Below the pieces are notes generated by a model. It did not search any database, had not been told where the DNA came from, and was given only the letters and a program-made list of their open reading frames with translations. From positions 1 to 37,391 of the forward strand of contig JAKAWS010000011.1 in NCBI GenBank assembly GCA_021816885.1: a stretch of DNA of 37,391 nucleotides. The letters are read 5' to 3'. Every line of letters begins with the position of its first letter. Position 1 is the stretch's first letter. This DNA comes from Microcaldota archaeon. GTDB lineage: Archaea > Micrarchaeota > Micrarchaeia > Micrarchaeales > Micrarchaeaceae. Below, one piece after another: positions 5,681 to 31,448 of this stretch. The translations under genes and the position numbers were made by a program.

Positions 5681-5767
5681 ACCTATGCCATATCTAAATC
5701 TGTAATCAATAATGTTTATATTTATTATATCTTACACAATAAATTACATACATTTGTAGGGTTTAGC
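5681..5767. promoter_or_regulatory. Divergent promoter region between glycosyltransferase operon and membrane protein
   Basis: An 87-nt AT-rich spacer separates two divergently transcribed units. On the minus strand TATAAA at 5715-5720 would place a start a short distance before the ATG at 5680. On the plus strand AT-rich candidates (around 5718-5731 and 5737-5745) precede the ATG at 5768. Both elements are read from sequence; the transcription starts are inferred. Confidence 0.5.
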
Positions 5768-8038: not shown

Positions 8039-8071
8039 AACAGCCAGAAGCATTGCGGCACTGCTTGCCAA

Positions 8072-8148
8072 TAGGGGCTCTTCTCTCTGCCTCAAAACAG
8101 TTGTGAGACTTTCAAGAGCTTTGCTCTAAAATGTGCCCCTAATCTCAC
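8072..8148 (+). other. Candidate pseudoknot-forming RNA segment downstream of the membrane-protein gene
   Basis: TAGGGGC (8072-8078) can pair with GCCCCTA (8135-8141), and GTGAGA (8103-8108) with TCTCAC (8143-8148). The two helices interleave, which is the geometry of an H-type pseudoknot. An inner hairpin AGAGC-TTT-GCTCT (8115-8127) sits inside. All pairings are exact. Chance occurrence is possible in a 397-nt spacer, and no known RNA family is recognised. Confidence 0.25.
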
Positions 8149-8216
8149 TTTAGGAACAAATACAAGACTTTAGAAGCAAATATATTAGATATTTATGTCC
8201 AAAACAAAAAATAGGA

Positions 8217-8357
8217 ATGGTATGCCTACTTGGTACCGGCAAATTTGGCGAACTGAACAACGATTCTGGATATCTGCTGACAATGAATGCCGACGTGCTG
8301 AAAGAAGGCAATAAGGTGAAAATGCCTATTTCTATATTCTTGTACCTGCTAGGATAA
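8217..8357 (+). CDS. Possible 46-aa small protein
   Basis: A short frame starting ATG at 8217 encodes MVCLLGTGKFGELNNDSG and ends IFLYLLG before TAA at 8355-8357. The frame is open further upstream to about 8155. An AT-rich TATA-like run (about 8180-8196) lies 20-35 nt before the ATG, which fits a leaderless transcript. There is no recognisable domain. It may be a decayed gene remnant instead of an active gene. Confidence 0.22.
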   Translation: MVCLLGTGKFGELNNDSGYLLTMNADVLKEGNKVKMPISIFLYLLG

Positions 8358-8435
8358 TCTTTTCGTGAAGCTCCGGCTTTGCGACAGCTGTATTCTGCTA
8401 TGCTGACTCTCGACCTTGTCTTCTTCTATAGGCGT

Positions 8436-10907: not shown

Positions 10908-11116
10908 CAGAACCAACAGGTAATAAACGGAAAAGTTAATAAAAGGTTGGGGATATGCGCTGGATTCAACGAAGAAAACAAAAGCAAGCGGCAACAGGCA
11001 AAACTTCGTCAATCATAGAACTAGACTATCGCAATAGCAATACACATATAAAATCTATTTTATTCGAGTAAGAAAGGTTTAAATACTTATCTTTTTATTT
11101 CATTGTAATTTAACAA
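10908..11116. promoter_or_regulatory. Divergent promoter region, oligosaccharyltransferase / S-layer protein
   Basis: On the plus strand a BRE/TATA-like element (purine-rich AGAAAGG then TTTAAATA at 11078-11085) lies ~35 nt before ATG 11117. A second TATA-like string (ACATATAAAA, 11044-11053) lies further upstream. On the minus strand a TATTAA-type box around 10936-10943 precedes ATG 10907 by ~30 nt. Two plus-strand boxes could mean dual promoters for a highly expressed surface protein. Confidence 0.5.
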
Positions 11117-14086
11117 ATGAACGTTAAATGCAAAGATGGTAGTATGAATAGACTAAAAGCGAAGAGAATAGCGGCTGTCGCAGGAGGCGCAGCATTGTTA
11201 GGTCTTGGGATCGCGTTCGCGGGTCCTGTAACATTCCAGAACGTACCGATAATCAACAACGCAGGCGCACCTGTAGTGCAGGTGGTCCTTGGTCACGGAG
11301 CTCAGCCGAGCGACGGTGTCGCAGCAGCAAGCATTGCAGCTGCAATAGGAAACCTTGCGTATGTATCAACACCAGTGACGGCAAGCGTCAACGCAACACA
11401 GGCAGCAAAGGTGCTTGGAGCGACAGTGCCTTCGGCATCAGTGACTCTGTCAAACCAACAGGTCTGGCTGAATGAGAGCTCATCCGCATCGTTTGGAACC
11501 AACTCATACGGTTTCACAGCGCTGATAGGATCGGTCTTCAACAAGGCTATACAGCTCGGTTCTCCAATCAACACAAAGCAGCAGACCGGCCAACAGATAT
11601 CACAGAGTACATCATATACATACAACTCTGTATCGAATGACATAAATCCGTTGCCTAGCCCGTATGTAGCATATGGAGCTCCATCAGTGAGCAGCGTAAC
11701 AGCATCATACAACGGAGGCGGAATGACATACAGCACATTCTCCAACTCTACGAATAATGTTGACGACCTACTGCAGGTAAGCTCAACACAGCTTCCATCT
11801 TTGCTAAACAACTATGGAGTAAACGGAGAGACTGAATATCTGTGGCTGACCGGATTCCCAGTATTCAACCAGAACACAAAGACGTTCAACCTCGCAAGCG
11901 CATCAGGAGCATACCAGGTAGCCTTCAACAACCCAATAACAATGAAGACTAGCTCGAACGGCATCAACAATGCTGACATATCGCTGCTAGGCCAGAATTG
12001 GACAATCTTGTCATACCTTGCCCCAGACGGCAACGCAACGTCAGGCACGGTGCCTTCTTCTACAACAGTCAGTGGAGGAAAGATACAGTTGGCAGAGGCA
12101 TTGACTCCGGTACAGACACTATATGTTGGAAAGAGCTTCCAGTTCGGCAACTTCACAGTACAGCTTGCTGACCTCGGAAGGGCAAACTCCCAAGGCAAAA
12201 GCCCTGCGATACTGAACATATATTATAATGGAGGGAACACCCCGACAAACACAACATCAATATACGCGCCGAACCTGACAAAGTTCAACGTCTCAGGGCA
12301 TATGCTGTTCCTGAAGGTAAAGAACGTGACGAACGGTTACACGATACAGTACGCAAAAGTACAGGCATACTCTAACGTGTACAACATAACAAGTTCGCAG
12401 GTCCTGAACCAGACAAACGATCCAGGATGGACTGCAGAGCTTCTATGGACAAACAGTTCCTCAACAGGACATCCGAACGCTTTGCAGAGCATAGTCTTGG
12501 TAAACAGCACGCCAGAGACACTGACACCTGGACAGAGCTTCAGCTTTGTGCAGAGTCCGTCTGCGTACAAGCTGACGTTCTTGGGACAGACACTCGGAGC
12601 GTCATCGTTCGACCCAGTGACAGTGCAGAGCGAGCATCTCGGCAGCGTAACATACGCTAACAAGGGAACTGCTGCACAATTGACAGGGGCCAACGCGATA
12701 AGCAACGTGACAGAGCCGGCAGAGGAACTCGTAGTGACAAGCTCCATACCAGGAGCATTCACAGCAGGTTCAGCTCCACAGAGCTCGACCCTAACATACG
12801 ACCTTACGCCGTTCCAGCTCAACTCGACGTCAATGACTGCATCTACGGCAAATGTTGTGGTACGAGACTCCCTCTCCACCGCCGCTGGTCTTGTGAACGC
12901 TAACAGCCTATTAACAGTGACTGTAAACGGTTACGACGGTCTGACCCATCTGAACCCATCGTTCACGATAAACGCACTAACTACGAGCAATGTGGTAGTT
13001 GGTAACGTTCCAGGCGGATTTACCAATGTGACATCGATAAAGGTGTCTAGGGCGATTCCAGGATTGAGTGTGGGGGTGGTCCAGAGTAGCAATGTCCTCA
13101 ATGTACTCGCATCGTTGAATTTTAATTCAACCCCGCAAATCCTGTACGCACCTGCATCAGGTAAGGTGTACGATCAGGTAACACCTGGAAGCACAGCGAC
13201 GTACAACCAGCACAATGGTCAGCCAACCACACCGTTTACATTGGCAACGGCATCTAGTGTGACGTTCGGCTCAGGACACTCCAATGAGTACTTCACGTAC
13301 ACGATGAACGAGTTGGCGGTTCCAAGCCAGGTTGGTGAACAAGATTCAGTTTCATTCGGTCTGTTCAACAATACAGGCGGAGTAACAACTGAGCCTCTGT
13401 TCATACTGAACGGAACAGTGAGCGGCACGAAGAACAACGTGACGTACACACCGACAGTCGGCGCCGCAATCAACGCGAACCAGAGCTTCGTAACTGAGCG
13501 TGGAAGCAAGATTGCCTCGATTGGCCCACAGCAGATAACGTTCGACATTGCAAAGAGCGTAGACCAGCTACAATTCGTTGTGGCTCCGTCCAGCGCATCA
13601 AGTTCGAACGCAGTATCATACTCACTGCAGGGACCATACGGCGTAGGACAGGCTACAAACATAGCGAACGTTTCCATAGGGAAGGTGACAGCCAACGTAT
13701 CAGTCACTCCAGGAGCACACTTCACAGTGACTGGAATCAGCAACCTGACAGCAACACCGTCAGTGAGCAGTGCAGACACACCTGTGTTATTGAAGAACCT
13801 GAGCGCAGGATCTCCAACAAACCTGGTAGTGCTTGACTCACAGGCAAACGCTGGAAGCACGCTGGTACTGGTAGGAAGCGGATACGTGAACTCTCTCAGC
13901 GCACAGCTGGAAAGCGCACTCGGCATATCAATAACCCCGACAAGCTCACCGGTATTGCAGGCATACGCTGCAAACACCACAAGAGGAGCAAGAGTATTGG
14001 TAGCAGGGTACACTGCAAACCAGACGACTGCAGAGGCAAACGCCTTCATCCAGGACCTGTACAGCTCGGCAGCAAGCAGCGTTTAA
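11117..14086 (+). CDS. S-layer protein (methanococcal-type)
   Basis: A 989-aa secreted protein. After a short basic start comes a hydrophobic signal segment AAVAGGAALLGLGIAFAG (residues ~19-36), then mature sequence with VVQVVLGHGAQPSDGVAAA (about 54-72). The 'V.VVxGxxA.psDgvAAAnIAa.iG.LAY' pattern is characteristic of archaeal S-layer proteins of the Methanococcus type (TIGR01564-like). The body is Ser/Thr/Asn-rich with numerous N-x-S/T sequons, consistent with N-glycosylation by the divergent AglB. A second in-frame ATG at residue 10 (11144), preceded by GGTAG, is the alternative start; methanococcal relatives begin close to the signal helix, which favours it slightly. There are almost no Cys residues in the mature chain. 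The gene ends inside a palindrome followed by T-rich DNA. It is probably the main envelope lattice protein. Confidence 0.87.
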   Translation: MNVKCKDGSMNRLKAKRIAAVAGGAALLGLGIAFAGPVTFQNVPIINNAGAPVVQVVLGHGAQPSDGVAAASIAAAIGNLAYVSTPVTASVNATQAAKVLGATVPSASVTLSNQQVWLNESSSASFGTNSYGFTALIGSVFNKAIQLGSPINTKQQTGQQISQSTSYTYNSVSNDINPLPSPYVAYGAPSVSSVTASYNGGGMTYSTFSNSTNNVDDLLQVSSTQLPSLLNNYGVNGETEYLWLTGFPVFNQNTKTFNLASASGAYQVAFNNPITMKTSSNGINNADISLLGQNWTILSYLAPDGNATSGTVPSSTTVSGGKIQLAEALTPVQTLYVGKSFQFGNFTVQLADLGRANSQGKSPAILNIYYNGGNTPTNTTSIYAPNLTKFNVSGHMLFLKVKNVTNGYTIQYAKVQAYSNVYNITSSQVLNQTNDPGWTAELLWTNSSSTGHPNALQSIVLVNSTPETLTPGQSFSFVQSPSAYKLTFLGQTLGASSFDPVTVQSEHLGSVTYANKGTAAQLTGANAISNVTEPAEELVVTSSIPGAFTAGSAPQSSTLTYDLTPFQLNSTSMTASTANVVVRDSLSTAAGLVNANSLLTVTVNGYDGLTHLNPSFTINALTTSNVVVGNVPGGFTNVTSIKVSRAIPGLSVGVVQSSNVLNVLASLNFNSTPQILYAPASGKVYDQVTPGSTATYNQHNGQPTTPFTLATASSVTFGSGHSNEYFTYTMNELAVPSQVGEQDSVSFGLFNNTGGVTTEPLFILNGTVSGTKNNVTYTPTVGAAINANQSFVTERGSKIASIGPQQITFDIAKSVDQLQFVVAPSSASSSNAVSYSLQGPYGVGQATNIANVSIGKVTANVSVTPGAHFTVTGISNLTATPSVSSADTPVLLKNLSAGSPTNLVVLDSQANAGSTLVLVGSGYVNSLSAQLESALGISITPTSSPVLQAYAANTTRGARVLVAGYTANQTTAEANAFIQDLYSSAASSV

Positions 14087-16193: not shown

Positions 16194-18491
16194 ATGAACC
16201 GTTTATTCCTCTTGGCCATACTTATCATATCCATTCCGGTTGCTGCTTCTGCTGCATTTGCATCTCCGGCTCCTTCGCCATCCCTCTCTGCGTTGTATGC
16301 CTTTTATGGAATACAGAATGTGAATCACGTATCCAACATAACATACAACAACAGCACATACGTACTCGTGCACCTTGACAATTCCAGCACATTCCTAGTC
16401 AACAGCACAGGCTCTAAATACTCCCTTGCGACATCTCCATCATCAATCGCCACGGTAATCTCCGCATATCTCGAACATTCCTATTATCCCAGCAACTCAT
16501 CCTTCTCGAACCTCTCTGCAGAGATGCAGGCATATAGGTCAACCACCTCGGAACAGCTCAACCTCTGCCTCTCTTTTACCGGCCTGCGTTACACTTCAAG
16601 CACGGTGCAGAACGGGTACCGCTCATGCTACGACACAAACTACTGCACACAGGAAATAGCCGGATTCGGCGCGCAGTTTGGCGCAGGCATAGTGAACTTT
16701 TCCGAAACATACGGAGCATTCAACCAGAGCTACAACGCATTCCTGAACATCACCGCGCACATAAACCAGTCGAACTACGGCAGCAAGATAAACGCCCTCT
16801 ATGCCGCAGCCCTCAATGTCAGCGCATCCTCCGCAAAGATACCTGAGTCAGACATATTTCCTGTTCAGAACGTCTCGCAGTCTTTGCTCAGCTCATGCCC
16901 GTACTCATTTACCTCTACTCCCTGGTACTGCGGGAGCAGGTTCATAGGGGGATTCTGCCCGTCTGTCTGGTTCAACTACACAAACATGTCGAAGATAACC
17001 AATCAGGTCAGCGCGCTCCGTTCCCTTCCAGTCTACAACTCCACCATATACTCCTATGCATCGTCCGCTTCAGGAACCGCAACCGGCCTAATCAGCGCGT
17101 ACAACGAGCGCACGAACACGACCCTCTTTAATTCGATGCTGGAGTACATAAGCCCGCTCTACAACTCTACTGTGAAGAACGCCAGCTTCGTAAACTCGAG
17201 GTTTGACTATGCGCCTCTCTCGAATACGCTGGCAGCTCTCGAGTTAAAGTTCTCAGCTGTGAAGTCCCTTGCATACAATCAGAATGTCAGCGCGGCGAAC
17301 GCCATCCTTGTCTCAATGATAAAGAACCTTAGCGTTACATATAAGGCTGCGGCAGCAACATATCTTCCGGTATACAACACATCCACGCAGAACAACAAGG
17401 AATTAAGCATCATAAAGCTGGATTACGCGCCAGGCTCTGTGCCCCAGAGCCTTACCTCGCTGGAGAGCGCACAGAACTCCATAAACTCAGAGCTTTCTGG
17501 AAAGGTAAACCAGACCGCACTAGGCGCGATAAGCGCCAACGCTTTGTCAGTCGGTTCACAGCTTGCCTCCTTGGGCAGTCCTTTCTCAATGGCTGCTTTT
17601 GTAAAAGGGACAGATTACTGGTTCGTCAGCTCTCTGTTCAACGGCTCACCAAACCCTTCCAGCGCCTCATACGCATACGCCGCAGCGCTGCTCTCCCTTA
17701 TAATAGGGCTCATCATCCTTGCCGCCGCGTTCTTTGCTACAAGGCCCAAATCCGGCCATCCCAAAAGCATGCACCATAACAGGAAGGCGGGCAAACGGAC
17801 AATCGCCCTTGCCCTACTATTTATAATGCTCGTGCTCGTATATCCAGCAGCGACATACTACTATGCAGCATCAGCCAACAGCTTCATCCCAGCAAGCTAC
17901 TTCCTGTCAAAGCTCTCCTCGTCCAACACAATCGCTGTTTATACTGGCAGCATAGCCTCCCAATCGTGCATCTCTTCCATAAGCTCAAACCTCTCCAAAT
18001 CCGGCAAGTCGCTTGTTTCTATAGGCAACGCATCCTCATCAACTGCCTACACGGCATTCGAGAGCACGCTCAGCGGAAAGGGCTCAGACACCTTCTCCCC
18101 GCAGAACGGCACTACCTCTCTTACCATATCATACTCCGCTAACACCACAACAGGCAGCATCTCAGTATACAACAACGCTAGCAAACAGGTATTGGATTTC
18201 ATACTCAACGGCGGCGCATCGGAATCAGGCAGCCAGAGTGTAAGCGGCGCCGCATCCGGCACATGGAGCGTCAAGTATAACCTTTCCTCCTCCGCGCTTC
18301 TCAAGATAAGCGGCACGTCATCGACGCGCCAATCGGCAAACAGCATCACAATCTCGAACGCCATATCAAGATCTATTCCAGTGCTGTACGCCTCCAACAC
18401 TACGGCCTATAAAGGGATGCTTGGTTATGTGATGTACATGAATGCATCAATGCTCGGACCGGGATGCACAGCATCAAAGCTCATAGGATGA
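16194..18491 (+). CDS. Secreted, heavily sequon-bearing membrane-anchored protein of unknown function
   Basis: A 765-aa protein. It begins with a signal peptide (MNRLFLLAILIISIPVAASA) and a large extracytoplasmic domain (about 25-490) with very many N-x-S/T sequons and clustered Cys (near 143-152 and 233-254, e.g. CYDTNYC). Two membrane segments follow (ALLSLIIGLIILAAAFFA ~500-517; IALALLFIMLVLVYPAATYYYA ~535-556), separated by a basic His/Lys loop. A second external Ser/Thr/Asn-rich domain (about 560-765) contains SYFLSKLSSSNTIAVYTG and a Cys near the end. I do not recognise the family. The following gene, 10 nt downstream, encodes a protein whose outer domain looks related to this C-terminal domain, so the pair probably acts together at the cell surface. 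Glycosylation by the nearby AglB is likely. Confidence 0.8.
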   Translation: MNRLFLLAILIISIPVAASAAFASPAPSPSLSALYAFYGIQNVNHVSNITYNNSTYVLVHLDNSSTFLVNSTGSKYSLATSPSSIATVISAYLEHSYYPSNSSFSNLSAEMQAYRSTTSEQLNLCLSFTGLRYTSSTVQNGYRSCYDTNYCTQEIAGFGAQFGAGIVNFSETYGAFNQSYNAFLNITAHINQSNYGSKINALYAAALNVSASSAKIPESDIFPVQNVSQSLLSSCPYSFTSTPWYCGSRFIGGFCPSVWFNYTNMSKITNQVSALRSLPVYNSTIYSYASSASGTATGLISAYNERTNTTLFNSMLEYISPLYNSTVKNASFVNSRFDYAPLSNTLAALELKFSAVKSLAYNQNVSAANAILVSMIKNLSVTYKAAAATYLPVYNTSTQNNKELSIIKLDYAPGSVPQSLTSLESAQNSINSELSGKVNQTALGAISANALSVGSQLASLGSPFSMAAFVKGTDYWFVSSLFNGSPNPSSASYAYAAALLSLIIGLIILAAAFFATRPKSGHPKSMHHNRKAGKRTIALALLFIMLVLVYPAATYYYAASANSFIPASYFLSKLSSSNTIAVYTGSIASQSCISSISSNLSKSGKSLVSIGNASSSTAYTAFESTLSGKGSDTFSPQNGTTSLTISYSANTTTGSISVYNNASKQVLDFILNGGASESGSQSVSGAASGTWSVKYNLSSSALLKISGTSSTRQSANSITISNAISRSIPVLYASNTTAYKGMLGYVMYMNASMLGPGCTASKLIG

Positions 18492-21781: not shown

Positions 21782-21801
21782 CCCCTACCTGAAGGTAGGG
21801 G
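21782..21801 (-). other. Right-end hairpin, probable 3' part of TnpB guide (omega/re) RNA
   Basis: Perfect 9-bp stem CCCCTACCT / AGGTAGGGG with a 2-nt loop; the tnpB stop codon (21785-21787) lies inside it. In characterised TnpB systems the guide RNA spans the tnpB 3' end and right end, with the guide drawn from the flanking DNA. Here the flank is the serS promoter. The RNA itself is inferred. Confidence 0.55.
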
Positions 21802-23047
21802 CTTCCTCCGCAGGTACTGTGGAGTATGTTCTCAGTTCCTCGACACTGCTTGCCCTTCCTGTTGAAGGGTAGAGGCAAATATCTCCCTGAGCGTTAGTTC
21901 GGGCAAGCCCTGCCCTACCTCTTTTGAGTATGTTCATCGATGCGTTTACATCCCTGTCCATCGTAAGACCGCATGTGCTGCAGTTGTAGATGCGGTCTTC
22001 GAGTGTGAGTTTATCTTTATCTTTCTTCACGCTGCCGCATCTGTTGCACTCCTGTGTAGTATTCTTTGCCAGCACTGTTACGAATCCCATACCGGCACTT
22101 TCAGCCTTGTATGAGAGCATGCTTATGAATCTGTTCCATGAAGCGTTCTGGATTGACTGCGCGAGCCTGTGGCTCTTCTCCATGTTCTGTATGTTCAGCG
22201 ATTCTGCCGCAAACGAGGTGTAACCTTCATTGACCAATTTGTCAGACAGTTTGTGCATGAAGTCGTTTGACTGGTTTGTCACTGTGTTCCACTCCTTTTG
22301 GAGTTGCTCCTTTGCTGTCTGCCTTCTCTTCGAGCCTTTTTTCCTTCTTGCGACTATTCTCTGCCATCTTGCAATCCTTTTCTCTTTCTGTTTGAAGAAC
22401 TTTGGTTTCTGAATTGTCTTTCCGTCTGACAATGCAACGAAGTTGTTGAGTCCCATGTCGATGCCGATGGGGTTTATGTCGTTTACTCCTGTTGGGTTAT
22501 TCCCGTTTGTTGCGGTAAAGATTGCGTAGTAGTTCTTTCCTTCTTTCTTTATCGTCAGCGTCTTTATCTTTCCGTCCATATTTCTATGTAGTTTTATCTT
22601 CATTCTACCTATTCGTGAAACTCTGAGCATGTCAGTCTTTCGTTCCTTCTCTATTGAGAATGAACCGTTGTCCTGCGGATAGACTATACTGTAATACCTG
22701 TCAATCGATTTGAAGCGCGGAAAACCTACCTTGATATTCTTTCCTTGTTTCTTCTCCTTTACCCTCCTGAAGAAGTTCGCGTATGCTTTTATGAGCCTCA
22801 TGAATACTTCCTGACGTGTCTGTGAGTACAGTTTCAGGAAATCTGTGTCCTCGTTTATGGACTCTTGCATGTACTTATTGAGCGTTGCCATATTCACTTT
22901 TGACTTTCCGCCTTTTCCGTATTCCTCCTTTACTCTCCCCAGAATCTTATTGTAAAGTCGCTGCGCGAGTATTATACGTAAGTTTATCTCTTTCTGTCTC
23001 TTTGCATCGGGATAAATCCTGAACCTATAAGCCCTGAGAGAATCCAT
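21785..23047 (-). CDS. tnpB: TnpB RNA-guided endonuclease
   Basis: A 420-aa TnpB. It begins MDSLRAYRFRIYPDAKRQ (the usual 'YRFRIYP' start) and continues with the helical recognition part. The split RuvC domain has PIGIDMGLNNFVALSDG (Asp197), TSFAAESLNIQNM (Glu282) and MDRDVNAS (Asp366). A zinc ribbon inserts before the third motif (CNRCG 334-338; CSTCG 356-360). All catalytic and zinc residues are present, so it looks like an active RNA-guided nuclease that maintains the element at donor sites. Its paralog at 30159-31406 shares most of the core. A ~40-residue tail after the third RuvC motif overlaps the right-end RNA region, as is normal. Confidence 0.95.
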   Translation of the reverse strand: MDSLRAYRFRIYPDAKRQKEINLRIILAQRLYNKILGRVKEEYGKGGKSKVNMATLNKYMQESINEDTDFLKLYSQTRQEVFMRLIKAYANFFRRVKEKKQGKNIKVGFPRFKSIDRYYSIVYPQDNGSFSIEKERKTDMLRVSRIGRMKIKLHRNMDGKIKTLTIKKEGKNYYAIFTATNGNNPTGVNDINPIGIDMGLNNFVALSDGKTIQKPKFFKQKEKRIARWQRIVARRKKGSKRRQTAKEQLQKEWNTVTNQSNDFMHKLSDKLVNEGYTSFAAESLNIQNMEKSHRLAQSIQNASWNRFISMLSYKAESAGMGFVTVLAKNTTQECNRCGSVKKDKDKLTLEDRIYNCSTCGLTMDRDVNASMNILKRGRAGLARTNAQGDICLYPSTGRASSVEELRTYSTVPAEEAPTFR

Positions 23048-23102
23048 ATAGGAGCAGGGGATTGTATGTTTTTATACTTTACTACAATATACATCTAGTG
23101 CA

Positions 23103-23135
23103 ATTCATCCACGACTTAAAAGTTGTGGTTTTCTT
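23103..23135 (-). other. Left-end hairpin of the insertion element
   Basis: Imperfect 9-bp stem (23109-23128) with one G/T pair and an AA loop. On the minus strand it reads GAAAACC-hairpin-GGATGAA, the layout of subterminal hairpins recognised by IS200/IS605 TnpA. Confidence 0.6.
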
Positions 23136-23188
23136 GCATTAACACATATAAAATGCTTTGTATGTAGACGAGAAAACGAGAAAAACAG

Positions 23189-23274
23189 GCAGGGGTAGCA
23201 AAGCTTGGCCAAATGCGATGGGCTTAGGACCCATTCCCTTAGCGGGTTCGAGAGTTCGAATCTCTCCCCCTGCA
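23189..23274 (+). tRNA. tRNA-Leu (UAG anticodon)
   Basis: An 86-nt class II tRNA. Acceptor GCAGGGG pairs with CCCCTGC (23267-23273) and the discriminator is A23274. The D arm is GCA...TGC. The anticodon stem ATGGG/CCCAT closes the loop CTTAGGA with anticodon TAG. The long variable arm contains a CCC-TTAGC-GGG stem. The T arm is GAGAG-TTCGAAT-CTCTC. No intron and no encoded CCA. A TATA-like CATATAAAAT lies ~40 nt upstream (about 23145-23154). Its 3' part is duplicated at 24841-24871. Confidence 0.95.
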
Positions 23275-23281
23275 TCATTCT
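23245..23281 (+). repeat. att-like repeat 1: 3' end of tRNA-Leu
   Basis: This ~37-nt segment starts in the variable arm and runs through the T arm, the acceptor and a few bases past the gene. It recurs at 24841-24877 with only single-base insertions or deletions (an extra C, a missing T). Duplication of a tRNA 3' end around a foreign module is the signature of site-specific integration. Confidence 0.7.
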
Positions 23282-23310
23282 GACAGTCAGTACCCTTTTT
23301 CTTACAAAAG

Positions 23311-23334
23311 CTTTAAATAAACATATTGTTTATT
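23311..23334 (+). promoter_or_regulatory. Promoter and dyad operator of the AbiE operon
   Basis: TATA box TTTAAATA at 23312-23319 lies ~27 nt before ATG 23343, consistent with a leaderless mRNA. It overlaps a perfect 8-bp inverted repeat AATAAACA-TAT-TGTTTATT (23316-23334). AbiEi proteins are known to bind inverted repeats in their own promoter; this is the candidate site. Confidence 0.6.
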
Positions 23335-23342
23335 ATTGATAT

Positions 23343-23957
23343 ATGGATAAGCTGGTAGAGAAACTTGTAAGTGCAGTTCAAAACTCTCCTGGGGGCATCG
23401 CTATGCTAGAGACGCTCGAAAGCCTGAAACTATGCGATGGGTTCACTCTGAAAACTACGCTGAGCAGGTTAAGCAAGTCCGGCAAGCTAATTCGTCTAAA
23501 GCGCGGAGTCTATTCTGCGAACCCTATAAGAGATGCGTTTGCGGCTGCGCAGCGCACGTACAATGGATACATCGGGTTTTCCAGCGCCTTGTATGTCCAT
23601 GGGCTTATCACAGAGCTACCGTTTACGGTCACCGTAGTAACCGTCAATAAATCAGCATCAAAGGCGTTCGGAATGTACGAATTCAGGTCTGTCGCACTGA
23701 AAGAAAAGGCCATAGGGTTTGAAGATATAAATGGCTTAACTGTTTCAACCAAGGCAAAGACCTTATTTGATTGCATTTATCTGGAAAAGTATTCAGTTGA
23801 GAGGAACAAGCTAATTAATGCATATAAAGCATCACAGCTCAACAAAGAAGAATTAAAGGAGTTTGAGTCGTATGTAAACTGTTTTATCAAAACTAAAAGG
23901 CGTAGCATATTCGACAAAATAAAGAAGACGATAATCAGTAAAGGTGGAATTTCATGA
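23343..23957 (+). CDS. AbiEi-family antitoxin / transcriptional repressor (type IV TA)
   Basis: A 204-aa protein. The N-terminal winged HTH (GGIAMLETLESLKLCDGFTLKTTLSRLSKSGKLIRLKRGVYSA, about 18-60) has the 'L..L.k.G.l.rl.rGvY' wing typical of AbiEi_4 proteins. A C-terminal antitoxin domain follows, with YIGFSSALYVHGLI and STKAKTLFDCIYLEKY. AbiEi represses the operon and counteracts the AbiEii nucleotidyltransferase without stable protein contact (type IV logic), known from bacterial phage-abortive systems. It overlaps abiEii by 4 nt (ATGA, 23954-23957). It lies 68 nt after tRNA-Leu inside a tRNA-bounded island. Confidence 0.85.
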   Translation: MDKLVEKLVSAVQNSPGGIAMLETLESLKLCDGFTLKTTLSRLSKSGKLIRLKRGVYSANPIRDAFAAAQRTYNGYIGFSSALYVHGLITELPFTVTVVTVNKSASKAFGMYEFRSVALKEKAIGFEDINGLTVSTKAKTLFDCIYLEKYSVERNKLINAYKASQLNKEELKEFESYVNCFIKTKRRSIFDKIKKTIISKGGIS

Positions 23958-24751
23958 AACTTGATTTAGAAGTATGCAGGGCAATTGCAATCCGTTATGG
24001 ACTCCCTCTTCAGTTTGTATTCAAAGAATTTCATCTTATGGACGTGATATCCCAAATAGTTGCACTTACGGTTTTGGAACCAAACTCGTTGGTATTCAAA
24101 GGAGGTACGGCGCTTAGTAAAGCATACATGCAAAAAACGCAGAGGTTTTCAGAGGACGCAGACTTTGATTTGGTAACCGAGAATGCGAGGAAAGATATGC
24201 CTGATTTCTGCAAGAAGCTTGCAGGCGGAATTAAGGGCTACAAGATAACGGAATTCCGCAGGATACGCTCCACGATGCAGTTTTACTGTGAATACGAGAC
24301 GCCTTTTGGCGGCATCGATCATGTCAGAGTCGATGTCGCGCCAAAGAAGCTTCTAATAGCGAAGCCTTTAGAAAGTCGCCAGATAGTTTCCGAGTTTACA
24401 CAATCCTCCATAAGCGGAATGCGCATATATTCGATAGAGGATTTAACCGCGCGCAAGATGAATGCTCTTGCAACACGTGCAGAGGGCAAAGACCTATACG
24501 ATGTTCATGCCGCGTTGCAGATGTGCTCTAAAAAAGTGCTCAAAACCGCAATCGAGCTAATGTTAGAATCAGAAGACACTGGCGACACCGCTGAAGTGTT
24601 CCTGCAGAAAACTATTCTCCGCCTTAAAAAGAGCGACTCAAAGAAGATACGAAATATCACGAACCCATTTATCCCTGCAGCAAACCGGCCGAAAAGCTGG
24701 GAGGAACTGAAAAACGACCTGCTGTCGAAGTTCGAAGATCTGCAAAAGTAG
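23954..24751 (+). CDS. AbiEii-family nucleotidyltransferase toxin
   Basis: A 265-aa protein of the DNA polymerase beta-like nucleotidyltransferase fold. LVFKGGTALSKAYM (about 46-59) and RFSEDADFDLV (64-74) form the GGTAL(S)K and D-x-D active-site motifs that bind nucleotide and metal. RIYSIEDLTARKMNALATRAEGKDLYDV (about 155-182) gives the third conserved block with K...R...KD..D. Relatives transfer nucleotides to tRNA acceptor ends or similar targets and cause growth arrest. All motif residues are intact. It is translationally coupled to the AbiEi gene. It may defend against viruses or stabilise the island. Confidence 0.87.
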   Translation: MKLDLEVCRAIAIRYGLPLQFVFKEFHLMDVISQIVALTVLEPNSLVFKGGTALSKAYMQKTQRFSEDADFDLVTENARKDMPDFCKKLAGGIKGYKITEFRRIRSTMQFYCEYETPFGGIDHVRVDVAPKKLLIAKPLESRQIVSEFTQSSISGMRIYSIEDLTARKMNALATRAEGKDLYDVHAALQMCSKKVLKTAIELMLESEDTGDTAEVFLQKTILRLKKSDSKKIRNITNPFIPAANRPKSWEELKNDLLSKFEDLQK

Positions 24752-24796
24752 CTCTTCCGTGCCCCTGAGCCTACTTTTTCTAGTGAATTTGCCGAT

Positions 24797-24871
24797 GGTG
24801 GAGCATGGCCAAACCTAAGTTCGGGGCATAGTCCTTTAGTGGTTCGAGAGTTCGAATCTCTCCCCCCTGCA
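24797..24871 (+). pseudogene. Decayed tRNA-Leu-like sequence
   Basis: The 3' 31 nt repeat the tRNA-Leu tail almost exactly (T arm GAGAG-TTCGAAT-CTCTC included). Further upstream, weaker matches keep the order of tRNA-Leu blocks (GGTGGAGCA, TGGCCAAA, CCTTTAGTGG). No GCAGGGG acceptor strand and no convincing anticodon arm remain, so it cannot be a working tRNA. It is either a decayed tRNA-Leu duplicate or the distal attachment site of an integrated element. Confidence 0.55.
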
Positions 24872-24877
24872 CATTCT
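24841..24877 (+). repeat. att-like repeat 2: duplicated tRNA-Leu 3' end
   Basis: Direct repeat of 23245-23281 (26 identical bases, then one extra C, then TGCA, then one missing T and CATTCT). Together the two copies bracket the AbiE module of about 1.6 kb. No integrase gene is present between them. Confidence 0.7.
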
Positions 24878-24887
24878 TTCACATTCT

Positions 24888-24966
24888 TATGACCACACAT
24901 TACTTAATTATGTGGTTTGTAGTCATTATGACCACAATATTTAAATATCTGTATATTGTAGTCATA
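24888..24966 (+). promoter_or_regulatory. Tandem 39-bp dyad operators over the Fic promoter
   Basis: Two head-to-tail copies of TATGACCACA-N20-TGTAGTCAT occur with a 39-bp period: half-sites at 24888-24897 and 24918-24926, then 24927-24936 and 24957-24966. The inner arms of copy 2 extend to 14 bp with one mismatch. Its centre is the TATA box (TTAAATAT, 24941-24948), 25 nt before ATG 24969. A repressor bound here would block transcription of the fic gene. Confidence 0.65.
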
Positions 24967-24968
24967 CT

Positions 24969-25883
24969 ATGGCATTCATAGAAAAGCAAAACCATGGCGG
25001 GCATTTGTACTATTATCTAGCAAAGAGCATACGAACTAAGGAGGGCAAGACCAAAAAATTTAGGATTCTTCTCGGCAGGGCACTTCCATCTAAAGCCGAA
25101 CTTCAAAAAGTGCTTGCACGACTTGATAAGATAGCGGCAAAGGAGCAGAGAATCGGTTGGCTATCTGACGAGACCATAGAGCGACTAGAGGATTTAAGGT
25201 CGTCGATATTGATATTTAAGAAAACCCCCGAAGATATTCTACCGAAGGACTTTTTGGTGCGCTTCACCTATAATACTAATGCAATAGAAGGCAATCGCCT
25301 CACCTTAAGGCAGACGGCTCTATTGCTCGCAGATAAAATCGCGCCAGAGGGAGCAAGCTCCAATGATGTAATCGAAGCATTAAACTCTGAAGATGCATGG
25401 GAGTTCATTAAGTCCTATAAAGGTCAATTCAACAATACGTTTCTGCTCAGGGTCCAATACCTGATAACGAAGAGCACATCATGCAGAATGCAAGGAAAAT
25501 ACAGAGATAACGAGGTAAGAATACTAGGGTCAGATTGGACTCCACCGCTACATTCTAAAGTGCCGGTCATGATGAATAAAATTTTCAGTGACTGCTCTAA
25601 ACAAAAGAGGGCTATGCATCCTGTAGAACTTGCCTCTTGGGCACACTGTAATATCGTCCAGGTACACCCGTTTACCGATGGTAACGGGAGGACTGCTAGG
25701 CTTATCATGAACTGGATGCTAATCAAGAATCACTTTCCGCCTGTTATCATAGAGGTCAAAAACAAAGAGCGCTATTACAATGCGATAGAAGAAGCCGATA
25801 AGGGCAAAACCGTCAATTTCGCCCATTTCGTCGCGCAGCAACTTCTTGAGCAGTATGTCACTAGCAGATCAGATACAAATTAG
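24969..25883 (+). CDS. fic: Fic-domain protein (AMPylator, class II-type inhibitory helix)
   Basis: A 304-aa protein. An N-terminal segment (GGHLYYYLAKSIRTKEGKTKKFRILLG) common in archaeal Fic proteins is followed by a helical region. The inhibitory motif TNAIEGN (about 102-108, S/T-xxx-E-G/N) precedes the Fic core with HPFTDGNGRTAR (about 236-247), the catalytic HxFx(D/E)GNGRxxR loop. His, Asp, Gly, Asn and Arg are all present, so AMP transfer from ATP to a protein hydroxyl is expected, with autoinhibition by the Glu finger. No separate antitoxin gene is adjacent, which fits the built-in inhibitor. The promoter has two tandem dyads, but the protein shows no clear C-terminal HTH, so its repressor is unknown. 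Confidence 0.9.
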   Translation: MAFIEKQNHGGHLYYYLAKSIRTKEGKTKKFRILLGRALPSKAELQKVLARLDKIAAKEQRIGWLSDETIERLEDLRSSILIFKKTPEDILPKDFLVRFTYNTNAIEGNRLTLRQTALLLADKIAPEGASSNDVIEALNSEDAWEFIKSYKGQFNNTFLLRVQYLITKSTSCRMQGKYRDNEVRILGSDWTPPLHSKVPVMMNKIFSDCSKQKRAMHPVELASWAHCNIVQVHPFTDGNGRTARLIMNWMLIKNHFPPVIIEVKNKERYYNAIEEADKGKTVNFAHFVAQQLLEQYVTSRSDTN

Positions 25884-25913
25884 CCGAGTTCAAATCTCTT
25901 TCCTACGCCTGCA
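25884..25913 (+). repeat. Third, decayed tRNA 3'-end-like segment
   Basis: Directly after the fic stop codon comes CCGAGTTCAAATCTCTTTCC then TACGCCTGCA, resembling the tRNA-Leu tail (GAGAGTTCGAATCTCTCCCC-TGCA), with the T-loop box GTTCAAATC and the TGCA end retained. Identity is clearly lower than between the first two copies, so this is a suggestion of an older island boundary. Confidence 0.35.
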
Positions 25914-25945
25914 AGACCCAATCCGCCAGGTTTTTCATCCACGGA

Positions 25946-25973
25946 CCGTATATTATCCGTATAATATATACGG
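25946..25973. promoter_or_regulatory. Orphan dyad/direct-repeat element
   Basis: CCGTATATTAT is followed at once by CCGTATAATAT and then ATACGG, giving both a direct repeat and an inverted repeat. A TATA-like GTTTAAATTA follows at about 25977, yet no plus-strand gene starts downstream. It looks like the operator of a lost gene, or a regulatory end for the minus-strand rhodanese gene. Confidence 0.35.
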
Positions 25974-26019
25974 ACTGTTTAAATTATCTAAATCAAAGAA
26001 GCGTATCTACAGACTAAAA

Positions 26020-26382
26020 TCAAAGATTCTTTCCAGAGAGCTTTGTTATTCCCCCTTCGAGATGGTATGTGTTTATCTTATGCGCCTTTTGCAGGAAGTC
26101 GGATATAAAATGGGATGTCCTTCCGTGATAGCACAACAGGACATGGTCTTTCAAATCTGCGAGCTCCGTCGCTTCCTTGTAAAGCAAATCTTCCGGATCT
26201 AGCCTCATTATCATCTTTCTTTCCACATTAAGTATCTTGCTTATCTTATAAATCGGTTCGACGCCAAGCCATACAAAACGCGAATTCTTTCTGTCAGCAA
26301 TCATAACAGCTTCCTCGAGTCCAATAGATCTTTTCTTGCCGGTCGCTTCATCTCTCATGTAATCCATCCCATTCAAATCCAT
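26020..26382 (-). CDS. Rhodanese-like protein
   Basis: A 120-aa single rhodanese domain. Near the C-terminus, DHVLLCYHGRTSHFISDFL holds the active-site loop C-x-x-G-R-(T)S with Cys84, and YHLEGGITKL is the conserved 'v..L.GGi..l' end. The N-terminal third (residues 1-40) deviates from typical rhodaneses. Such proteins transfer sulfane sulfur to cyanide, thioredoxin or sulfur carriers, or act as regulatory phosphatase-like domains; the partner is unknown here. On the minus strand a TATA-like TTTTATATC (26399-26409) lies ~20-25 nt before ATG 26382. It is divergent from the OB-fold gene. Confidence 0.75.
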   Translation of the reverse strand: MDLNGMDYMRDEATGKKRSIGLEEAVMIADRKNSRFVWLGVEPIYKISKILNVERKMIMRLDPEDLLYKEATELADLKDHVLLCYHGRTSHFISDFLQKAHKINTYHLEGGITKLSGKNL

Positions 26383-26480: not shown

Positions 26481-27206
26481 ATGCCGATTATGGAAGGCGC
26501 GGGGTGGGTTGACAGCATGTCAGGCATGATAACCCGGACTCAGGCATCCCGCCTTGCAGATCGCAATATCGGCACGGTGCCTGCCAAAACGTTAAACGCC
26601 AAAGACCTGATTGCCATGTCAGCAGCTGAGCTAGGGCAGATTTATGGGGTATCGGCAGAGGACAAAATATACCGTGTATTCAACCAAACAGTAAGCATTG
26701 GAGCAAAACGCCTTCAGAAACACAGGGTGATAGTTATAGGGGAGGAAGGCGACACAGTAAAGCTAAATCTTAACGGGCGTGCATCTGAGCAGGCGGACAC
26801 ACTTCCCCTTGTAGTCGGTGATCGAATAAGGATAGACGACCTCATATTTGATAGCTCACACCAGACTTTGTATAGCACCGTGGCGTCCAATATGCAGTTA
26901 ATAGAACTTAATGCTGACAGCACTTCGGGGCCGTCCCGCTTCAACGGAGTGGTCGACAGCGTAGAGCCAAGCAGCATCAGTCCGAAAGAGGAGTTGGTTA
27001 TCAGGGCGCACGACGATTCTGGCAGCGTGATTGTGGCGGTATCCGACCATCAGGCAGTCTCTGACATGAAAAAAGGGGATGCAATCCTAATAGAGTTCTG
27101 CAGCATCCGAGAAAAAGGGGGGTGGCGCGAAATCTTCGCAAACAGGGATTCACGCATACTCAATCTGGCCTCTTGTACCTCTTCCCGAATTCGGCATACT
27201 CCTTGA
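26481..27206 (+). CDS. Tandem OB-fold protein, RPA/SSB-like
   Basis: A 241-aa protein. Following a helical N-terminus (~70 aa), two beta-rich modules appear: HRVIVIGEEGDTVKLNLNG...LVVGDRIRIDDLIF (about 80-130) and RFNGVVDSVEPSS...LVIRAHDDSGSVIVAVSD...MKKGDAILIEFCSIRE (about 153-212). Both show the OB-fold order of strands and the 'GD.i.i' turn found in archaeal RPA-like single-stranded DNA binders. No zinc finger is seen. ATG 26490 or ATG 26517 are possible alternative starts, since the TATA box at 26459-26468 puts the transcription start near 26487. The 3' end overlaps the convergent AAA+ gene by 47 nt. Nucleic-acid binding is inferred from fold pattern only. Confidence 0.6.
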   Translation: MPIMEGAGWVDSMSGMITRTQASRLADRNIGTVPAKTLNAKDLIAMSAAELGQIYGVSAEDKIYRVFNQTVSIGAKRLQKHRVIVIGEEGDTVKLNLNGRASEQADTLPLVVGDRIRIDDLIFDSSHQTLYSTVASNMQLIELNADSTSGPSRFNGVVDSVEPSSISPKEELVIRAHDDSGSVIVAVSDHQAVSDMKKGDAILIEFCSIREKGGWREIFANRDSRILNLASCTSSRIRHTP

Positions 27207-29898
27207 TGTCTTCTGCGCTTATTGAAGGCGTCACGGCATTTATCGATTCTTTTACCATATCCTGCGTTACCATGGAGTTTGGACCGCCCTGCATTACCTT
27301 GCGCATTGCCTTTCTCTTTGCGGAATTGCATATGGCAGCTATGTCGGCACCGCTATAATTAACCGTCATCTTGGCGAGCATGTCGAAATCGATGTTGCCA
27401 AGCGGTGCGCCTCTCAAGAACCTGACAAACATGAGCTTTCTCGTATTGAGTTTCGGCGGTCCCACATAGACGAGCTTGTCAAACCTGCCCGGTCTGAGCA
27501 AAGCAGGGTCAATGAAGCTTGGCTTGTTAGTGGTAGCTACGACCATCATTCCAGCGGAGCCTCTCATTCCATCCATCTGCTTTAAGAATTCTGATATTAT
27601 TTCATTAGCCATCTCTGCGTCAGCTCCGCGAGTGCTGACAAATCCGTCTATCTCATCTATGAAGAGTATCGAAGGCTTGTTCTCCTGCGCTCTGTAAAAA
27701 TACTCCTTTATGACAGCCGGGGCGTTTGCTGCCCCCGCTCTAATCACCTCGGAACTGTCCAGCTCTATCATGCTTATACCATCCACGCTCTTGCTGATAG
27801 TCTTCATCATCATCGTCTTGCCGGTGCCGGGCGGTCCATATATCAGTATGCCATTCGTATTCCTGACATCGTAGCTCTTCGCCAGCTCGGGGTGTGTCAG
27901 GACATCCATCGACTCCACTATCGTCTTCTTGAAGCTGTCATATCCCACTACTGCGTCCATGCTGATGTTCGGTGCAGACTCCTCCGCCACGATGTTGTGT
28001 ACACGTTCGAAGTCCTTCTTGAATTTTTCATACTCTTCTATCTGGACAAGCCTCGTCGAGGGCTTTGTGCTCTTTATAGCGCGCTCCAGGTCGCCGTTAG
28101 TGATCTTCAGCATCTTATGCATTTCTACAGCATCCCTGGCGACCTTTTGTGACGTCGCTTCGCACAGGTTTTTTATGTCGGCGCCGCTTAGCCTTTCCGA
28201 CATGTTTGCAAGGCGCTTCAAGTCAATGTCTTTCGAGACCGGAAGTTTGGAGAGGTACATGCCGAATATCTTCTCCCTTCCGTCCTCGTCCGGCAACGGT
28301 ATGTATATCGACCTGTCAAACCTTCCGGATCTTAGCAAAGCCGGATCTATGAAATTGGGCTTGTTTGTGGCACCTACGACTATGACTTTATCGAGTTTTT
28401 GAAAGCCGTCCAGTTCCTCAAGGAGTTGAGAAAGCACATGCTTGTGCGCCTCGTCGCCTTCCACATCCCTGCTCGTGCCCACTGCGTCTATCTCGTCTAC
28501 GAAGAGCACGCACGGGGAGTTCTTCTTTGCGATTGTGAATATCTGCGAGAGTTTCTTCTCGGATTCGCCAGAGTACGCAGAGATAAGGCTTGGTGCAGCA
28601 ATCCTGTAAAACCCGAAATGTATCTCGTTTGCAAGCGCCCTCATCAGCATCGTCTTTCCATTTCCAGGAGGCCCGAAAAGCAGCACTCCCTTTACAGGCT
28701 TTATCCCGTACTTTCTGGAAACTCCTCTTTGCTCTATCGGCCCGATTATGGATCGCATCATCTCCTTCTTCACCTCGGTGTAGTCTGCTATATCATCGAA
28801 AGTCTCGTTTGTGCCCTCGCTCTGTAGGTCCTCGAACGACTCTCCAAATTTCATCCTGATGTCGCGTTTTCTCACTTCAAGCGCTTTGAATACGTCAAAG
28901 TTGTAGAGCTCGAGTAGATATACGCCTAATGGGCATATGAAGAAGCTGAATATCGCAAATTCCCCTATTCCGTTTGTCAGGCTGGCAGGAGAGAGCGCTA
29001 TGAATACTACGGGATAGATAATCCCTAGGATGCTTGCCTTGACTGCACGGTATTTAGAGCGCTCCGATATCCCAAGGCGCTCTATGGCGAAGAACATGCC
29101 TATTGTGACCGCTAGCTGCACTAGGTACAAAGGCTGCCGGAAAAGCAGTGCGATGAGCAGCACGAATATATTAGATATGTCTGCCAGTACCTTCTGGCTC
29201 AGGAAGACGCCAAGCCCGGAGCCTGTCTTAGCTACAAAATCAGAGAGCACAAGCCTTCCCTTCGAGGCAATAGTGAAACTTAGGGAACTGCCAAGCGCGC
29301 CGCTTCCTATTGAACCTATGCTCTTTGTGGTGTTGTATACTATGTAAGCGTTGTTCTGTATGCCCATGCTCGCAGAGAAAGCTATTATTCCGATAAAGAT
29401 CAGCACAGCCACAATCGCCCCTCTCTTGAAGCCGACCAGCAACGGAGTAAGGATAAGGAAAGGTATGAAGAATATCCTGCCTATGAAAGAAAAGCTCAGT
29501 GTGAGGAGGGTAAAAGCAAGGATTATGCTCCTATAATGCATATAACCGAGTATCATGGTCGCTGTAAAGAAGAATAAGTATATCCATCCGAGAGCGGGCG
29601 CTTGATACATCACTGCCGGGAAGACAAGCACAGCAAGTATAACCAGGCCAAGGAATGGGTGCTGCATCGCGGCGGCGAACAGCACTATTGCCAAAACGGC
29701 GGCGATTGCTACAGGGTAATACGGCACCCCCCATGCGACAGATAGGAAAGCAGCGAATATGATGGCAGCATCTATAAAACGCCAGTCTGCGACGATACTC
29801 TGGATTGTGTCCTTCATATTGTAGATAAAGATGGGCAGTCCTACTGCTTTCTGACTATGCACAGCTCCGACGGCGCCATCTTTTCCCATGCAAACCAC
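27160..29898 (-). CDS. Membrane-anchored tandem AAA+ ATPase (CDC48/p97-like D1-D2 with polytopic N-terminal domain)
   Basis: A 912-aa protein from GTG 29898 (ATG 29889 or ATG 29817 are alternatives). Residues ~41-335 hold roughly 8-10 hydrophobic helices. A linker leads to D1 with Walker A GPPGNGKT (409-416), Walker B VLFVDEID (464-471), sensor region VVGATNKPNFIDPALL and arginine finger RSGRFDR. D2 follows with GPPGTGKT (688-695), ILFIDEID (744-751) and RPGRFDK. Both modules look competent for ATP hydrolysis. The CDC48 N-domain is missing and replaced by the membrane domain; no HExxH protease motif (as in FtsH) and no Lon-type Ser/Lys protease domain are present. I infer a membrane-protein extraction or unfolding machine that may feed a separate protease or the proteasome. 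Most archaeal CDC48 homologs are soluble. Confidence 0.88.
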   Translation of the reverse strand: MVCMGKDGAVGAVHSQKAVGLPIFIYNMKDTIQSIVADWRFIDAAIIFAAFLSVAWGVPYYPVAIAAVLAIVLFAAAMQHPFLGLVILAVLVFPAVMYQAPALGWIYLFFFTATMILGYMHYRSIILAFTLLTLSFSFIGRIFFIPFLILTPLLVGFKRGAIVAVLIFIGIIAFSASMGIQNNAYIVYNTTKSIGSIGSGALGSSLSFTIASKGRLVLSDFVAKTGSGLGVFLSQKVLADISNIFVLLIALLFRQPLYLVQLAVTIGMFFAIERLGISERSKYRAVKASILGIIYPVVFIALSPASLTNGIGEFAIFSFFICPLGVYLLELYNFDVFKALEVRKRDIRMKFGESFEDLQSEGTNETFDDIADYTEVKKEMMRSIIGPIEQRGVSRKYGIKPVKGVLLFGPPGNGKTMLMRALANEIHFGFYRIAAPSLISAYSGESEKKLSQIFTIAKKNSPCVLFVDEIDAVGTSRDVEGDEAHKHVLSQLLEELDGFQKLDKVIVVGATNKPNFIDPALLRSGRFDRSIYIPLPDEDGREKIFGMYLSKLPVSKDIDLKRLANMSERLSGADIKNLCEATSQKVARDAVEMHKMLKITNGDLERAIKSTKPSTRLVQIEEYEKFKKDFERVHNIVAEESAPNISMDAVVGYDSFKKTIVESMDVLTHPELAKSYDVRNTNGILIYGPPGTGKTMMMKTISKSVDGISMIELDSSEVIRAGAANAPAVIKEYFYRAQENKPSILFIDEIDGFVSTRGADAEMANEIISEFLKQMDGMRGSAGMMVVATTNKPSFIDPALLRPGRFDKLVYVGPPKLNTRKLMFVRFLRGAPLGNIDFDMLAKMTVNYSGADIAAICNSAKRKAMRKVMQGGPNSMVTQDMVKESINAVTPSISAEDIKEYAEFGKRYKRPD

Positions 29899-30097: not shown

Positions 30098-31448
30098 GCG
30101 GGAAATCCTACACTCTTTAGGGGCGGGATGAAAGCGAACCGCAGAAAGGCGTATAAACATGAATGATGAAACAAAAGACATGGATTCTGCAAGAGCCTAC
30201 AAGTTCCGAATCTATCCTGATGCAAAACGTCAATCAGGGATAGATTTACAATTACTCCTCTCAAAAGAGTTCTACAATCTGCTTCTCGAAAAGTCAATAA
30301 AATCTTATAAAGGGGGAAACAAAAAACTTTCAATAGCAACCCTAAACAGATTCGCAAAAGAGATAGAAAAGGATAAGAAATACCTGCAAATATACTCACA
30401 GACTAGGTGCGAAATAAAATACCGCATGTTGAAGGCATACCAAAACTTCTTCAGGAGATGCGATGAAAAGAAGAGAGGAAAGAAAGTAAAGGTAGGATTT
30501 CCGCGCTTCAAATCAAGGGACAGATATTGTAGCATAGTCTATCCACAGGATAACGGTTCGTTTTCAAGGAGGAAGGACAGATTGAGAGTCTCAAGAATAG
30601 GAACAATGAGAATAGATATGCACAGGAGCGTAGAAGGGGCGATAAAGACCCTCACCATAAAGAAAGATGCGGAAAACTACTACGCAATCTTTACGACGAT
30701 AAAAAAGACAGAGCTTCCAATAATAAAAGACATAAATCCAGTCGGTATAGATTTGGGTCTAAACTCCTTCATTGCCTTGTCAGACGGAACAAAAATAGAG
30801 AAACCGAAGTTCGTGACGAAGTCCAAAAAACATATCGCAAAGTGTCAGAGGATAATTGCAAGGAGAAACAAAGGCTCAAAAAGGAGGGAGCAGTCAAAAC
30901 TCAAACTTCAAAAGAAATGGGAACATACCACAAACCAATCAAACGACTTCGCACATAAGTTATCAGATAAACTTATAAATTCAGGATACACCTCGTTCGC
31001 AGTAGAAAAACTCGACATACAGAACATGGTAAAGAACCACAATCTTGCGCAGGCAATACATAACGCTTCATGGAACAGATTTGTGCAGATGCTTTCATAC
31101 AAGGCTGAAAGTGCTGGTATGAAGGTAATAAAGGTAAATCCGCAATATACATCCATGACCTGTAGTAATTGTGGTTGTATAAAGGAGATAGGAGATGAAA
31201 GGACATACAACTGCGGCATATGCGGGATGCGGATGGACAGGGACGTAAACGCATCGATAAATATACTCAAAAGAGCTAGGGAGGGACATTCCCGAAGTCA
31301 CGCTCAGGGAGATATGACCTCTGCGGTTCAACAGGAATTGAAAAGTCGCATCGACGAACTGAGAACTGATAAAACACATCCTTTGCAGAATGCAGTGATT
31401 GCATGAACGCAGAGGAAGTCCAACCGTTTACGGGTGGAAGGATGTCAC
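30098..31448 (+). mobile_element. IS200/IS605-family element, tnpB-only, second copy
   Basis: The left end (30098-30135) reads GCGGGAAATCC, a weak hairpin, then GGGATGAA. The right end has a near-perfect 8-bp hairpin (31420-31437) between GAGGAAG and GGATGTCAC (ends about 31448). Both ends match the element at 21772-23140 in layout and partly in sequence. It carries tnpB only. It sits exactly between tRNA-Tyr and tRNA-Asp. Outer limits are estimates. Confidence 0.78.
30159..31406 (+). CDS. tnpB: TnpB RNA-guided endonuclease, second paralog
   Basis: 415 aa from ATG 30159; ATG 30180 (MDSARAYKFRIYP) aligns with the start of the other TnpB and is equally likely. RuvC motifs: PVGIDLGLNSFIALSDG (Asp198), TSFAVEKLDIQNM (Glu), MDRDVNAS (Asp). 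Zinc ribbon: CSNCG and CGICG. All key residues are intact. It is similar to the 21785-23047 product along its whole length (for example RAYxFRIYPDAKRQ, VGFPRFKS and SIVYPQDNGSF in both) but differs in the first 100 residues and in the tail, so it is a diverged copy and not a recent transposition. Element maintenance by guided cleavage is the expected role. Confidence 0.95.
   Translation: MNDETKDMDSARAYKFRIYPDAKRQSGIDLQLLLSKEFYNLLLEKSIKSYKGGNKKLSIATLNRFAKEIEKDKKYLQIYSQTRCEIKYRMLKAYQNFFRRCDEKKRGKKVKVGFPRFKSRDRYCSIVYPQDNGSFSRRKDRLRVSRIGTMRIDMHRSVEGAIKTLTIKKDAENYYAIFTTIKKTELPIIKDINPVGIDLGLNSFIALSDGTKIEKPKFVTKSKKHIAKCQRIIARRNKGSKRREQSKLKLQKKWEHTTNQSNDFAHKLSDKLINSGYTSFAVEKLDIQNMVKNHNLAQAIHNASWNRFVQMLSYKAESAGMKVIKVNPQYTSMTCSNCGCIKEIGDERTYNCGICGMRMDRDVNASINILKRAREGHSRSHAQGDMTSAVQQELKSRIDELRTDKTHPLQNAVIA

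Follow-up and report, generated by a model that had tools for sequence, protein, structure and literature searches.

Msp1 is built from one transmembrane segment (TM) and one AAA module. In FtsH an aromatic-X-Gly motif is needed for threading (PMC5511170). Eukaryotic Cdc48 carries the aromatic residue of the pore loop in D2 only, while archaeal VAT has it in D1 too (PMC5511170). In archaeal LonB, which has an S16 peptidase, the TM segment sits within the AAA+ module (PMC9263693). The HbYX motif docks AAA rings on the archaeal 20S proteasome (PMC4192671), and in archaea that lack PAN it is Cdc48 that works together with the 20S core (PMC4192671, PMC6017811).

The protein discussed here, called the membrane AAA, appears by its sequence to belong among the membrane AAA+ machines. 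Its gene lies in the window (the whole stretch of 37,391 nucleotides that was analysed), which is part of a micrarchaeotal genome of 795 kb. With CDC48/p97/VAT the protein shares tandem AAA modules with AAA lids, the top sequence match and a similar C-terminal helix. About ten TM, however, replace the N-domain, both modules are D2-type, HbYX is missing, and the pore-loop aromatic is found in D1 only, unlike in eukaryotic Cdc48 or VAT. Like FtsH, it has an N-terminal membrane part, a short linker and, as predicted, a membrane-adjacent AAA ring with aromatic-X-Gly; it differs by its roughly ten TM, where FtsH usually has two, by a second AAA module and by the absence of an M41 peptidase. Msp1/ATAD1 resembles it as a membrane-anchored AAA unfoldase without protease and a proposed extractor, yet the membrane AAA has about ten TM and two modules (Msp1 being compared by description only). 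LonB is likewise a membrane-anchored archaeal AAA+ machine; the S16 peptidase, however, is absent here, and a separate Lon occurs in the same genomes. The ERAD retrotranslocon with its Cdc48 (Hrd1/Derlin-p97) offers a functional analogy, i.e., a membrane passage and a double-ring AAA puller, but these are separate proteins, in contrast to the one polypeptide here, and a sequence relation was not found. PAN is similar in its AAA module, yet it is soluble, forms a single ring, has an HbYX tail and is absent from the Micrarchaeota searched (see below).

Architecture of the membrane AAA

The reading frame comprises 912 aa with zero internal stops. A relative of the same genus (68% identity) begins at the position matching M4, and the ATG at 29889 is therefore the likely start, which yields 909 aa. 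Ten hydrophobic segments are seen between residues 40 and 330, and the peak 19-residue hydropathy amounts to 2.62 in the N part versus 0.79 in the AAA part. The original prediction had claimed some 8-10 N-terminal membrane helices and proposed a topology prediction for residues 35-335; the latter has now been run and bears the claim out. Over 37 homologues the inside loops contain on average 0.243 K+R per residue, the outside loops 0.040. This excess fits a ten-TM model with both termini inside. One predicted outside loop (180-256) spans about 75 residues. AF2 models of two sequences, the window protein and L035, are of low confidence (mean pLDDT 39.6 and 45.0) and were, in consequence, used for helix positions only; these positions agree with the hydropathy segments.

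The membrane domain belongs to no Pfam family, residues 1-355 being without a match even at E 10, and it has no match in the PDB. Its assignment to a known family was thus rejected. The CDC48 N-domain is missing, as had been stated, and so are the protease domains of FtsH and Lon: matches to M41 and Lon peptidase are absent from the contig, and D2 is the last domain of the protein.

Pfam recognizes two AAA modules, one near residues 405-535 and the other near 680-870, together with AAA lids. In D1 and D2 alike Walker A, Walker B, the sensor-1 Asn and two arginine fingers are conserved over 37 homologues, and both modules are, as foreseen, probably active. The pore loops differ. D1, the membrane-proximal module, keeps the aromatic residue, as WYG in distant families and, within the window's order, as Y/F-x-G; from D2 it has been lost in all 37 homologues. 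Since aromatic-X-Gly is common in D1 and occurs in no member in D2 (counts in Table 1), D1 is likely the gripping ring.

Inteins with splicing and LAGLIDADG domains split D1 exactly at pore loop 1 in three members (L079, L082, L085), and L079 has a second intein just ahead of Walker B. Several further genomes contain membrane-AAA frames of about 1400 aa.

Table 1. Positions of the features in the window and, where applicable, in the 912-aa protein
Feature	Residues	Position in window	Strand	Remark
Membrane-AAA gene		27160..29898	-	912 aa as listed; likely start ATG 29889, 909 aa
Polytopic membrane domain	40-330	28909..29781	-	about 10 TM, N-in/C-in; hydropathy, positive-inside, 37 homologues
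Predicted outside loop	180-256	29131..29361	-	variable; TM7-TM8
Short conserved linker, last TM to D1	331-361	28816..28908	-	31 residues
AAA+ module D1	362-636	27991..28815	-	
D1 Walker A	409-416	28651..28674	-	GPPGNGKT
D1 pore loop 1	442-444	28567..28575	-	YSG; aromatic-X-Gly in 33/37 members
D1 Walker B	464-471	28486..28509	-	VLFVDEID
D1 arginine fingers	R523/R526	28321..28332	-	
AAA+ module D2	645-911	27166..27966	-	
D2 Walker A	688-695	27814..27837	-	GPPGTGKT
D2 pore-loop-1 position	718-725	27724..27747	-	VIRAGAAN; aromatic-X-Gly in 0/37 members
D2 Walker B	744-751	27646..27669	-	ILFIDEID
D2 arginine fingers	R802/R805	27484..27495	-	
C-terminal tail		27163..27234	-	family ...YGxR; HbYX absent
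Major S-layer-like protein gene (PF05124)		11117..14086	+	13 kb from membrane-AAA gene

Distribution and gene neighbourhood

Micrarchaeota are very small archaea and mostly uncultured. About 140 of the 148 genomes of the window's order contain the membrane AAA or its fragments at contig ends, which rules out a frameshift or an assembly chimera; over the phylum, too, the fusion mostly stands in one open frame. The search for the same fusion, as suggested earlier, was run within Micrarchaeota. A broader membrane-domain profile found it in 206 of 240 genomes, a profile of the membrane domain only gave matches in 195 of 245, and the homologues are mostly single uninterrupted frames of 900-980 aa. 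This is a genuine fusion, conserved over most of Micrarchaeota and not confined to one genome; the observation is more general than one made on a single genome. The original prediction had asked whether the family might be common and already characterized. Common in the phylum it is, yet the open-licence papers searched do not describe the protein. Nor did the viral contigs searched hold any relative. In four families (f10, f13, f15 and f17) all genomes listed lack the gene and have soluble CDC48 only; it was either lost there or never present. One genome of the order (G006, contig C5) has two copies, about 28 kb apart.

The search for conserved neighbours, also proposed earlier, covered 20 loci from other families and revealed an S-layer gene (PF05124) within 3 kb of the membrane-AAA gene at 11 of them. 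At nine of the 11 it lies immediately downstream on the same strand, with a gap of 257-564 bp. Further cases of adjacency are seen by coordinates, with gene ends estimated (e.g., G148, G151, G165, G190, G195). The two genes are 13 kb apart in the window and 8 kb apart in the sister genome. Across most of the window's order a long distance separates them, and families without membrane AAA retain the S-layer gene. For these two reasons the tie hints at envelope clients and is not a proof; the frequent adjacency suggests that envelope proteins are among the clients.

In the window the stretch 1229-14086 is an envelope/glycosylation island with four glycosyltransferases (1229-5680), the S-layer gene (11117-14086) and two large proteins (5768-8038 and 8436-11012) for which Pfam gave no match. 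The product of 16194-18491 (765 aa) has no convincing match. Around the membrane-AAA gene (21785-26202 and 30159-31406) there are mobile and defence-type genes: two IS605 OrfB/TnpB-like genes, an AbiEi/AbiEii toxin-antitoxin pair and a Fic protein. An anti-phage role of the membrane AAA was rejected, the PADLOC matches being due to generic AAA similarity. A convergent gene (26481-27206, plus strand) overlaps the 3' end of the membrane-AAA gene by 47 bp; it has no match in Pfam, and its homologues are found 7-17 bp from the membrane-AAA stop in four other genera.

Relation to CDC48 and the proteolytic context

The AAA part had been described as a CDC48-like tandem. As to similarity, this stands: CDC48/p97/VAT gives the best matches among profiles and in the PDB. 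As to descent, the data do not support it in that form. The membrane AAA scores 410 bits against the CDC48 family (cut-off 802.65), whereas the soluble CDC48 of the same genome reaches 1015.7; PAN is the second-best NCBIfam match with 366-390 bits, below its cut-off of 500. D1 and D2 of the membrane AAA (MemD1 and MemD2) both align best to CDC48 D2. In IQ-TREE analyses each of them forms a clade, and the two are paired with supports of 96/92, 99/91 and 87/90 in three samplings; in the last, one long-branch actinobacterial AAA, whose placement is unsure, joins the pair. The proposed test of how the modules group gave a divided answer. Holding MemD2 with CDC48 D2 was rejected in both samplings tested (p 0.019 and 0.0004), while holding MemD1 with CDC48 D1 was rejected in one (p 0.0014) and not in the other (p 0.146). 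In the 99/91 sampling, a sister position of FtsH to the MemD1+MemD2 pair was not rejected (p 0.073). With two modules of D2 type that tend to join one another in the trees, an independent duplication of a D2-type module is probable and the simplest reading of the tandem. Our confidence in it is moderate, since the samplings left out PAN, Vps4, Msp1 and others.

A true CDC48 orthologue that has swapped its N-domain for a membrane domain would account for the top matches in profiles and PDB, and also for the C-terminal helix PSxxxxxLxxYxxF, which resembles that of archaeal CDC48. The modules, however, do not match D1 and D2 of CDC48 respectively, they group together (99/91, or 87/90 with the one unsure branch), and a canonical CDC48 with N-domain coexists. 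With MemD2 separated from CDC48 D2 twice, and MemD1 from CDC48 D1 in one sampling only, we regard orthology as very improbable.

Other AAA proteins were encountered as well. L131 and L132, from two genomes, are double-AAA proteins of about 606 aa with a degenerate first module, distinct from both CDC48 and the membrane AAA. L004 (G000, contig C6), a frame of 507 aa, combines TPR repeats with a single divergent AAA module; frames of similar length occur in most relatives.

The FtsH peptidase M41 is absent in all 25 relatives searched, the bacterial control genomes being positive in 10 of 10, and it has no match anywhere in the window's genome. The 20S proteasome and Lon are both present in 25 of 25, and soluble CDC48 exceeds the cut-off in 24. 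In the window's genome Lon_C is located on contigs C13 and C18, outside the membrane-AAA gene. PAN is above cut-off in none of 116 Micrarchaeota genomes (archaeal controls 4/4 positive). The soluble CDC48 tails from 23 genomes all end in -YR, more precisely MYR in all but one (TYR), and are of the HbYX type. Taken together with the absence of PAN, this means that CDC48 probably serves Micrarchaeota as the chief ATPase of their proteasome. The C-termini of the membrane AAA read ...YGxR(K) in most members and show no HbYX. Soluble CDC48 is thus the likely proteasome partner, a direct HbYX coupling of the membrane AAA to 20S is not supported, and any hand-over to the proteasome would be indirect. 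The hand-over of substrates to a separate protease, as originally proposed, has accordingly found no direct support. In five of 25 genomes (G010, G016, G113, G011, G015) a 20S subunit gene lies 5-9 kb from the membrane-AAA gene; these belong to few genera, and the proximity was judged not compelling.

Proposed function and its alternatives

The membrane AAA may be a protease-free membrane unfoldase-dislocase of the FtsH/Msp1 kind that perhaps serves the envelope; we assign this reading a probability of roughly 0.5. It is supported by the aromatic D1 pore loop and by genomes that lack FtsH and possess 20S, Lon and CDC48. The membrane-protein dislocase of the original prediction would fit these data. 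Six copies would assemble into a double ring, with some 60 TM helices arranged as a ring above it. The membrane domain would collect membrane or envelope proteins and feed a cytoplasmic end of them to the pore of D1; this ring would thread the clients and pull them out of the membrane as FtsH and Msp1 do, while D2 would serve ring assembly or ATP coupling and not gripping. Once extracted, the chain might refold, or else soluble CDC48 with the 20S proteasome, or Lon, might degrade it. Hexamerisation, substrate, pulling direction and hand-over are what we infer. Against a dislocase it may be argued that membrane proteolysis could be the task of Lon already, which every relative searched has and which is membrane-anchored in LonB, its characterised archaeal form. 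Also, the four families without the gene imply that its function is not indispensable in the phylum.

The frequent S-layer adjacency, and in the window an S-layer gene 13 kb off and beside four glycosyltransferases, would equally suit an envelope-biogenesis motor that exports, inserts or assembles S-layer or surface proteins instead of removing damaged ones. We consider it rather unlikely: the S-layer gene is usually distant in the window's order and survives where the membrane AAA is missing, the gaps downstream suggest separate transcription, and an inward-pulling D1 pore suits removal better than export. As the membrane domain lacks a recognized homologue, a transporter or an export channel is conceivable. 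The ten-TM domain, in the inside loops of which polar and charged residues are conserved, might be a transporter or lipid-handling protein, the activity or assembly of which is regulated by the attached AAA rings; with no transporter family match in Pfam or PDB, and with rings that retain the threading pore loop and all catalytic motifs, this is improbable. A polytopic membrane domain without known fold near the rings, and a D2 aromatic pore loop missing in all 37 members, recall a Bcs1-like translocase, in which the oligomeric membrane domain would be a large pore and AAA cycles would pass a folded substrate without threading. Such a mechanism is quite improbable, for D1 keeps the aromatic pore loop that is absent from Bcs1-type rings (PMC5511170), and no Bcs1 sequence match was obtained in Pfam or PDB.

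The dislocase reading can be carried further. The ten TM might themselves provide the passage of an all-in-one retrotranslocon, through which an AAA tandem of its own duplication pulls via the membrane-proximal ring in envelope quality control; this is tentative and rather doubtful. Equally speculative is the proposal that, in archaea which have neither FtsH nor PAN, its clients would be membrane proteins and those of the S-layer.

Of the earlier reading, CDC48 descent and direct hand-over to a protease are the weak parts. To our knowledge, the removal or remodelling of membrane proteins in archaea without FtsH is poorly understood. The membrane AAA is a conserved, phylum-wide candidate machine for which a clear prediction can be made: D1 pulls and D2 does not grip. 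It would be a membrane-embedded double-ring AAA in one polypeptide, the tandem of which was probably formed independently of CDC48. The S-layer is the surface through which these archaea touch their hosts, and the membrane AAA may be tied to it.
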